A DNA stretch of 32,203 nucleotides from Chloroflexota bacterium (lineage in GTDB: Bacteria > Chloroflexota > Dormibacteria > Dormibacterales > Dormibacteraceae): positions 1 to 32,203 of the forward strand of contig VBII01000035.1 of the NCBI GenBank assembly GCA_005887735.1. The letters are read 5' to 3'. Below, piece by piece: positions 8,715 through 11,441 of this stretch. The notes beneath the pieces were generated by a model. The model was not told the DNA's origin and made no database searches. It saw only the letters and a list, made by a program, of their open reading frames with translations. The translations under genes were made by a program, and so were the position numbers. Each line of letters begins with the position of its first letter. The first letter of the stretch is position 1.

Positions 8715-9080
8715 ATGCGCGCTGCGCGCCTTCCGGAGACGAGACGCCAACGGTTCTTCTTCGCTGTGTTCTTGCCGCTTGCCGTGCTGGCCAACCTTAG
8801 TTTGGGCTTGTTGATCCTGGTCGGCCTGCATCCGGAGCCCTGGCCGGGTTGGCTGGAGGTGGGGACCGGTGCATTGTGTTGCGTGATCGCGGGCTGGCTG
8901 GCGGCAGCCGCCTGGTCGAAGTCCTACTGGCATCGGAGCATGGCGCGGCAGGTGGCAACCTGGCGCCGTATCTCTGACACCTTCTTTGCTTGGATCGAAG
9001 ACGTGCCGGTGCCCGCCGAGGCCCTCCACAGCCTGCGGTCGTCGCTCGAGGAGGCGGTCCCCAGCTCGGAGCGAAATTAG
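8715..9080 (+). CDS. Small two-helix membrane protein of unknown function
   Basis: A protein of about 121 residues. I choose ATG 8715 because AAGGGGGG lies 6-8 nt upstream; ATG 8709 (two residues longer) is too close to that site, and the track start at 8589 has no support. A basic N-terminus (RAARLPETRRQR) leads into a first hydrophobic helix (FFFAVFLPLAVLANLSLGLLILVGL) and a second one (LEVGTGALCCVIAGWLAAAAW). A soluble, moderately charged C-terminal tail follows (SKSYWHRSMARQVATWRRISDTFFAWI…). I do not recognise a family. It stands immediately before response-regulator and kinase genes, so it could be the membrane input partner for the soluble kinase downstream, but nothing in the sequence proves that. 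Confidence 0.65.
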   Translation: MRAARLPETRRQRFFFAVFLPLAVLANLSLGLLILVGLHPEPWPGWLEVGTGALCCVIAGWLAAAAWSKSYWHRSMARQVATWRRISDTFFAWIEDVPVPAEALHSLRSSLEEAVPSSERN

Positions 9081-9217
9081 CCCCGACGGAATCTAAACGA
9101 CCCGCTGGGGCGTTGTTGGTTCCGGATGGTCACACAGGCGGCTGAACGTGTGCGTGCGTCGAGGTTCGTGACGGTGTATGTTCCGCACGTCGTGCCGAGG
9201 TAGGGCTCGGATGAAAC

Positions 9218-9233
9218 GGAGGCAGCCCGCCTG
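9218..9233 (+). promoter_or_regulatory. Ribosome-binding site directing a CTG start
   Basis: GGAGG at 9218-9222 is followed by exactly 8 nt and then CTG at 9231. In this frame there is no ATG, GTG or TTG between the upstream in-frame TAG and TTG 9279, which lies after the essential receiver acidic pair. A short overlapping ORF, ATG 9211 (MKRRQPA, stop TGA 9232-9234), covers the site and may couple to it. Confidence 0.6.
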
Positions 9234-9884
9234 ATTCGTCTTGGGATCGTTGACGACCATCCAGTCTTCAGACTGGGCTTGATTCGCACTTTCGAGCGCG
9301 AAAACGACCTGGCTGTCCTATGGGAGCTTCCAGGCGTGACGGAGCTTTTCACAATGCTCGACCGGTTTCCGGTCGACGTGGTCCTGATGGACCTCAGCCT
9401 GGGTCCAGGGCAGGACGCCCTGGCGGCGATCATGAATATCAGAGAGAAATACGAGCTGGTCAAGGTGATCGTCATCTCGGCCTCGCTCGATTGGGAGGCG
9501 GCGACGGCGGCCAGGGCGGCCGGGGCCAACGGCTATCTGCCCAAGGACCTGTCGATCGCCGACATGGTCGCCACGATTCGCGGCCTGGCGTCGCCAAACT
9601 TCGGCAAGCACAGCTTCAGGGACCTCCTGGACGTGCAGTCGCGGGGCAGCGCCACGACGCAGGCCTGGCAGCGTGCGTTGAGCCGCAGGGAGCAAGAGGT
9701 GCTCGCCCAGCTGCGCCGGGGGCGCTCCAACAAGGAGATCGCCGCCCACCTCGGGGTATCGATCACGACCGTCAACAAGCACGTCCAGCAGGTCCTCAAA
9801 AAACTGCACGTGAAGACCCGCTCCCAGGCTGTCGCCATGGTGACCGCGGAGCCCTGGACCCAGGTCGCCGGCCGTCGGCGATAG
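9231..9884 (+). CDS. NarL/FixJ-type response regulator with CTG start
   Basis: About 217 residues. The ORF track starts at TTG 9279 and so loses the receiver's acidic pocket. Reading back to CTG 9231 adds LIRLGIVDDHPVFRLG, exactly the beta-1 and Asp-Asp motif the family requires. Phospho-acceptor Asp lies in VVLMDLSLG, the switch Ser in VIVISAS, and the conserved Lys in GYLPKDLS. The C-terminal LuxR helix-turn-helix is complete (LSRREQEVLAQLRRGRSNKEIAAHLGVSITTVNKHVQQVLKKL). On phosphorylation it should dimerise and bind DNA. Its natural partner is the histidine kinase 225 nt downstream, although a second regulator also follows that kinase. Identity is firm; the CTG start is a strong inference from the ribosome site and domain completeness. 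Confidence 0.88.
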   Translation: MIRLGIVDDHPVFRLGLIRTFERENDLAVLWELPGVTELFTMLDRFPVDVVLMDLSLGPGQDALAAIMNIREKYELVKVIVISASLDWEAATAARAAGANGYLPKDLSIADMVATIRGLASPNFGKHSFRDLLDVQSRGSATTQAWQRALSRREQEVLAQLRRGRSNKEIAAHLGVSITTVNKHVQQVLKKLHVKTRSQAVAMVTAEPWTQVAGRRR

Positions 9885-10043: not shown

Positions 10044-10108
10044 GCCGCCGTATAGGACTCCCGTTGTTGGCGTTGGATCGGTCACCGGGATGAAAAGTGG
10101 GGTTGGCT

Positions 10109-10822
10109 ATGCCGCCTGTGGTCGTGAGTCCTCCATTGAGGATGGAGGTTCTGCAGGCGGGGGTTGAGGAAGAGGTCCGGCGACTGGTTGCCCGTGAGCT
10201 TCACGACCGGGTTGCCCAGACCCTTACCGGAATGCTGGTTGACGTGGAGAATTTCAAGTCCGAGCAGGTCAGCTGGCAGGACGTGGTGCAGCAGCTGGAT
10301 GGGATCCAGAGCTCTACCCGTCAGGTATTGGCCAGCATTCGCCAGCTCCTGCACGATCTGCGCGGTGAAGAAGCGCTGGACGGCAGCTTTGTGGACGCCG
10401 TCAAAGCGCTCCTGGTGCGATTTGAAGCCAAAACCGGCATTCGGCCCGAGATCGAGATCACCGAAGGCTGGCCGAAGGCACTGACGCCGCAGGCCTCCTT
10501 GAACCTCTATCGGATCATCGAGGAAGCGCTCTCCAACATTCGAATGCACAGCGGGGCGAAGAGCGTTCGCATCGTGCTCGGGCCCCATGCCGAGAACGAG
10601 CTTGGAATCGTTGTTGAGGACGATGGCCGAGGCGTCGACACCGACCCCTCACGGCCGGTAGGCATGGGGACGATTGGAATGCGCGAGAGGGCCATGTTCC
10701 TGGGTGGACATATCCGGGTCGAGAGCGAAAACGGCCATGGGACCCTCGTTCGCGCGATGTTTCCGAAGGATCTGCTTGTATCGCACGATACGGTGATCGT
10801 TGCGAAAAGGAAAAGTTCATGA
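10109..10822 (+). CDS. Soluble NarX/DesK-type histidine kinase (HisKA_3)
   Basis: About 237 residues from ATG 10109; GTG 10097 (track) and ATG 10142 are alternatives. The phosphorylated His is in ARELHDRVAQTLTGML (HisKA_3 dimerisation domain). The HATPase_c domain has its N box (EEALSNIRMHSGAKSV), G1 box (VEDDGRGVD) and G2 box (GMGTIGMRERAMFLGG). There is no transmembrane helix and no recognisable sensor domain; the His-containing helix starts within about 30 residues of the N-terminus. It is therefore a cytoplasmic core kinase that must receive its signal from a partner protein or be constitutively active. Its stop overlaps the ATG of the next response regulator (ATGA), a classic coupled two-component pair. 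Confidence 0.92.
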   Translation: MPPVVVSPPLRMEVLQAGVEEEVRRLVARELHDRVAQTLTGMLVDVENFKSEQVSWQDVVQQLDGIQSSTRQVLASIRQLLHDLRGEEALDGSFVDAVKALLVRFEAKTGIRPEIEITEGWPKALTPQASLNLYRIIEEALSNIRMHSGAKSVRIVLGPHAENELGIVVEDDGRGVDTDPSRPVGMGTIGMRERAMFLGGHIRVESENGHGTLVRAMFPKDLLVSHDTVIVAKRKSS

Positions 10823-11441
10823 CCGTAGCCGTCAGAGCCGCGCGCGTACTCGTAGTCGACGATCAGACGCTCTACCGGACCGGCCTCGCAAGCCTGCTCG
10901 GTGATGATGAGCGGGTGGAGGTCGTCGGCCAGGCGGTCGACGGCGCCGATGGAGTCAAGCAGGCCGCCAAGCTGAAGCCTGACGTCGTGCTCATGGACAT
11001 CAAGATGCCCAACGTCGACGGCATCGAAGCAACTCGGCAGATCATGGAAGCGGTCCCGGGCATCAAGGTATTGATCCTGACCACGTTCGAAACCGACAGC
11101 CAGGTCATCCAGGCGTTGAAGGCCGGGGCCAGCGGTTACGTCCTGAAGGACTCCTCGGCGGCTGCAATCGTCAGCAGCATCGTGGCCGTGATGTCCGGGG
11201 AAAAGGTCATGGCGAGCGCCGTTGCCAACCGAGTCCTCGACATGCTCACAGGGACCGCGACTCCGAAGGAGTTCTACGACGGGCTGACCAACCGGGAGAT
11301 CGAGATCCTCAAGCTCCTGGCGAGCGGGATGGCCAACAAGCAGATTGCTTACCGCCTGAAGATCAGCGAGAAAAGCTCGGGATCTACGACCGGTCTCAGG
11401 CGGTCCTCTACGCCGTAAAGAAAGGACTGGTCGAGGTCTAG
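10819..11441 (+). pseudogene. Response regulator with deleted DNA-recognition helix and frameshift
   Basis: The receiver is intact: VLVVDDQTLYRTG, acceptor Asp in VVLMDIKMPNVDG, Thr in LILTTFE, Lys in GYVLKDSS. The LuxR domain begins normally (LTNREIEILKLLASGMANKQIAYRLKISEK) but then reads SSGSTTGLRRSSTP and stops at 11418. In another frame the expected ending appears right after the break: KLGIYDRSQAVLYAVKKGLVEV, with TAG at 11439-11441. What is missing is the recognition helix (family pattern TVRNHVSNIYE), about 34 nt, near 11371-11374. The flanking GAGAA would plausibly have been repeated at both ends of the lost piece, suggesting slippage deletion. As written, the protein could be phosphorylated but should not bind DNA. 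Assembly error is an alternative. Confidence 0.85.

Follow-up and report, generated by a model that had tools for sequence, protein, structure and literature searches.

The response regulator gene in the window, a 32,203-nucleotide stretch of DNA that is part of a soil MAG, raises the question of where its translation starts. The receiver frame is bounded on the upstream side by an in-frame TAG stop codon (9201-9203, plus strand), and between this stop and the codons for the VDDHP motif, which begin at 9249, no ATG, GTG or TTG is present in that frame. The first canonical start is TTG 9279 (9279-9281, plus strand), at which the mechanically derived ORF of 201 aa begins, downstream of the VDDHP codons. 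The first-pass annotation had reasoned from this that only a start upstream of TTG 9279 other than ATG, GTG or TTG could include the VDDHP motif, and had proposed a CTG codon preceded by GGAGG at 8 nt. Both descriptions are borne out by the window sequence: the CTG is located at 9231-9233 on the plus strand, the GGAGG Shine-Dalgarno sequence at 9218-9222 on the same strand, and the spacer at 9223-9230. As detailed below, comparative evidence strongly supports CTG 9231 as the predicted start codon.

The product starting at this CTG (9231-9884, plus strand) would have 217 aa and would carry formyl-Met-IRLGIVDDHPVFR as its N-terminus. It matches the receiver profile PF00072 with 61.6 bits over profile positions 3-110 of 111, and PF00196 with 60.1 bits, the latter match representing the C-terminal LuxR/GerE helix-turn-helix (HTH) of NarL/FixJ-type regulators. 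The hallmarks of a receiver are present, namely the acidic pair in VDDHP, the phospho-acceptor Asp in LMDLSLG and the conserved Lys in YLPKD. Among known structures, NarL (PDB 1a04) was matched with an E-value of 2.3e-22, and the alignments to the NarL, VraR and DevR structures begin at residues 2-6 (residue 2 for VraR and DevR). The protein thus resembles these regulators in its combination of a receiver with a LuxR-type HTH and can be aligned with them over nearly the full length, whereas its gene differs from theirs by the unusual start codon. A specific function cannot be named, because the scores against the NCBIfam equivalog models were far below the cut-offs.

Translation from TTG 9279 would instead yield a receiver that lacks strand beta-1 and the acidic pair. 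This codon is the earliest canonical start of the frame, and the resulting protein retains a Response_reg match, although the score drops to 46.5 bits and the match starts at profile position 20. The truncated product would therefore still be named a receiver, so that the earlier expectation that automated callers would shorten the protein was correct, while the expectation that they would miss its receiver function was not. A start at TTG 9279 is nevertheless extremely improbable, as this codon is not conserved: it is CTG in L002-L004 and in other orthologues, and the distance from the acidic pair to the next canonical codon ranges from 4 to 62 codons among the orthologues. Moreover, the VDDHP segment upstream of TTG 9279 is kept as protein in the orthologue alignment, its changes being synonymous.

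Orthologues were found in 18 of the 42 genomes of the family, including the genome of the window, and in one genome of another family; their loci are labelled L001, L002 and so forth. L001-L014 form a single clade with a support of 94/94, the internal branching of which is partly unsure. In 11 of its 14 members, the window included, the codon homologous to CTG 9231 is CTG as well (L001-L004, L006-L010, L013 and L014). It is GTG in L005 and L012, CCG in L011 and in none of the 14 an ATG, the codon for which the first-pass annotation had suggested searching the relatives. Outside L011, the sole alternative to CTG is thus GTG, which is itself a start codon. Thirteen alignment columns are occupied by leucine codons in all 11 CTG-bearing members; the start column alone is CTG in 11 of 11, whereas the other 12 have CTG in 2-8 of 11, and CTG makes up 45% of the leucine codons in the orthologues overall. 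It should be noted that these codon counts come from related species and hence are not independent of one another; we attach no formal probability to them. A non-canonical start codon conserved between species is a feature of weak-start attenuators of the infC or ccpN kind. In L001, L003, L007, L008, L009, L010, L013 and the more distant L112, the frame contains no ATG, GTG or TTG between its upstream stop codon and the acidic pair. The frame of L010 reads TAG-CCT-CCA-CTG, with the stop three codons before CTG, and that of its sister L012 reads TAA-AAC-CAA-GTG.

The same alignment bears on a start at the next codon, ATT 9234, which is ATC in relatives. ATT and ATC are listed in table 11, the distant L016 carries an ATG exactly at this position, and an ATC may start the gene of L112. 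Within the clade, however, this position varies between ATT, ATC and TTC, while in 13 of the 14 members GTG is the only replacement seen for CTG, and initiation at ATT 9234 is therefore highly unlikely. A sequencing error had been named as a finding that could overturn the CTG start. Such an error is unlikely to have produced the CTG of the window, because the separate genomes of four species all have CTG here and hardly differ in the 20 nt preceding it. The arrangement of CTG behind GGAGG is also more than chance: in 800 kb from two relatives, GGAGG or AGGAG precedes only about 1-2% of in-frame CTG codons at 4-10 nt, and at the present locus the pairing recurs across species.

GGAGG is located 7-8 nt upstream of the start codon in eight of nine close orthologues (L001-L005 and L007-L009), as expected of a strong Shine-Dalgarno sequence that makes up for a weak start codon. 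The sequence upstream of the start codon diverges with indels, so that the leader length changes out of frame, and GGAGG and its spacing persist. Read-through of TAG 9201 was rejected on the grounds that the length differences upstream are not multiples of three and that the stops occupy different positions. Occlusion of the start by a leader fold was likewise rejected, since the predicted folds differ between species and have no common structure. All nine close orthologues share a GGTGTATnnT box (9173-9182 in the window, plus strand), lying 53-62 nt before the start codon and in no fixed frame, which, judging by the alignment and these distances, may be a promoter -10 element or an operator. 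The idea that GGTGTAT is a generic promoter motif was dismissed because it is rare genome-wide, with 2 copies in one 400-kb stretch from a relative and 1 copy in a second such stretch.

The leader of the window also contains a mini-ORF (9211-9234, plus strand) that runs from ATG 9211 to TGA 9232-9234 and encodes MKRRQPA; its stop overlaps the start codon as CTGA. Ribosomes might therefore begin at ATG 9211 and then either shift frame or terminate and re-initiate into the receiver frame. CTGA resembles the ATGA overlap known from termination-reinitiation (PMC10666635), and in L002 and L003 a GAGGG lies 7 nt before the mini-ORF ATG. The mini-ORF with TGA across CTG is found in the window and in the three species closest to it (L001-L004), and L007 has a TTG-started version. 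Its start is absent, however, in L005, L009, L010, L012 and L013, and the ATG stands in the other wrong frame in L008 and in frame in L006. Frameshifting can thus not be the shared mechanism, and an upstream stop overlapping the start, as conserved among orthologues in termination-reinitiation, was not found across these loci. The TGA overlaps the start because codon 2 encodes Ile, and is in this sense a by-product. A route through ATG 9211 is very unlikely. The first-pass annotation had correctly described this ORF as ending across the CTG, but its suggestion that coupling may help is weakened: with the mini-ORF confined to the nearest species, coupling would be at most a local and optional addition, and reinitiation may add to the output in these four species only.

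Several members of the clade depart from the CTG arrangement. L006 lacks the 8-nt spacer that elsewhere separates GGAGG from CTG, and an in-frame ATG located four codons before the CTG probably serves as its start instead. An in-frame ATG is also found in L014, eleven codons before the CTG, but in its near twin L013 a TAG intervenes. L006 and L014 may thus not use the CTG. The in-frame ATG or GTG codons found 27-30 codons upstream in L002 and L004 are not conserved and are located before the GGTGTAT box. L010 and L012 may be paralogous copies, as they lack both a clear GGAGG and the usual gene neighbours. Among more distant members, the ATG of L016 stands at the following codon, and TTGs and GTGs occur upstream in L015 and L017, respectively. 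In L112, GGAGGAAGGAAGGAG is directly followed by ATC, and this candidate start behind a strong Shine-Dalgarno sequence, shared by L112 and L111, sits about 10 codons upstream of the position homologous to CTG 9231. ATC likely starts the gene in these two species, which have this N-terminus in common. One could imagine that the non-ATG starts of the whole family (CTG, GTG and probably ATC in L112 and L111) constitute an IF3- or nutrient-sensitive translational attenuator. This broader proposal is tentative and rather doubtful; if true, it would mean that the choice of start codon is in itself a conserved element of regulation.

We also considered whether CTG initiation reflects the initiation apparatus or a general habit of the lineage. 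In 457 ORFs from 800 kb of two relatives, ATG and TTG were enriched behind GGAGG or AGGAG in the 5' part of genes, and no such enrichment was found for CTG compared to synonymous codons or the gene interior. CTG initiation is therefore no general habit, and a lineage-wide use of CTG starts was rejected. A search for other conserved non-canonical starts in the two 400-kb stretches gave no clear case among only 39 usable pairs. Relaxed initiation machinery was rejected as well: 35 of 37 genomes contain IF3, and the genome of the window carries the exact, standard initiator-tRNA stem GGGCTCATAACCC. The anti-Shine-Dalgarno sequence CACCTCCTT was found at the 16S ends of two family members. Since the machinery looks ordinary, CUG is expected to initiate as poorly as in E. 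coli, in which its efficiency is about 0.86% of that of AUG; the codon accounts for about 0.024% of bacterial starts (PMC11497404). A switch to CTG is almost never seen in related genomes, with 2 cases among 61,358 ancestral AUG starts (PMC5622118). As a separate observation, GGAGG and AGGAG are uncommon before starts in the two relatives (G013:C81 and G005:C18; L113-L152), which suggests that many genes of the lineage are leaderless or independent of Shine-Dalgarno sequences.

Taken with the conservation of the locus, we consider it very probable that a full-length NarL-type regulator is made from CTG 9231 by virtue of its strong Shine-Dalgarno sequence, a start that selection appears to have kept as an attenuator. 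GGAGG, at 8 nt, would select the CTG, and initiation would presumably occur with fMet. Synthesis is expected to be low and possibly sensitive to initiation factors, since the pairing of CUG with the initiator tRNA is poor and IF3 screens this codon. A weak start codon offset by a strong Shine-Dalgarno sequence would most likely keep a DNA-binding regulator scarce, and it appears to have been selected as such an attenuator in this Dormibacterota family. The retention of CTG over the whole clade together with the strong Shine-Dalgarno sequence indeed suggests that weak initiation has been selected for in this regulator gene.

Conserved weak starts are known from other genes. The IF3 gene infC starts with AUU or AUA and is autoregulated by IF3. 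The likeness lies in a conserved weak start that lowers initiation, presumably through screening by IF3; in contrast to infC, the window gene has CTG and does not encode a translation factor, so that no autoregulatory loop is expected. The closest precedent appears to be ccpN of S. aureus and B. subtilis, together with cvfC1 of S. aureus, which have conserved AUA and AUU starts with extended Shine-Dalgarno sequences and an expression of about 10-30% of that obtained with AUG (PMC13009471). Here, too, a weak start (AUA in ccpN, AUU in cvfC1) and a strong Shine-Dalgarno sequence are conserved between species, and ccpN likewise encodes a transcriptional regulator. The window gene differs in having CTG, in encoding a two-component receiver-HTH regulator, in belonging to another phylum and in being known from sequence alone. 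No response regulator with a CTG start was found in the open-licence literature. To the known conserved weak starts, the window gene adds the rarer CTG codon and an unusual depth of conservation. The CTG, GTG and in-frame-ATG versions of this one gene form a natural set with which to probe why weak starts persist. Callers restricted to ATG, GTG and TTG would truncate the orthologue differently from genome to genome.

Downstream of the regulator, the window encodes a histidine kinase with HisKA_3 and HATPase profile matches (10097-10822, plus strand), with which, by synteny, the regulator would likely pair. A second response regulator gene (10819-11418) has a 34-nt deletion relative to L031 and L032, located between two GAGAAG repeats with its junction near 11371, which shifts the frame and removes the HTH recognition helix; mutation and assembly artefact are indistinguishable here. 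Upstream, at 8718-9077, a small and apparently membrane-bound protein is encoded, for which no Pfam or NCBIfam match was obtained. It lies beside the response regulator in most relatives, and the order TM-RR-HK-RR is retained at most of the orthologous loci.
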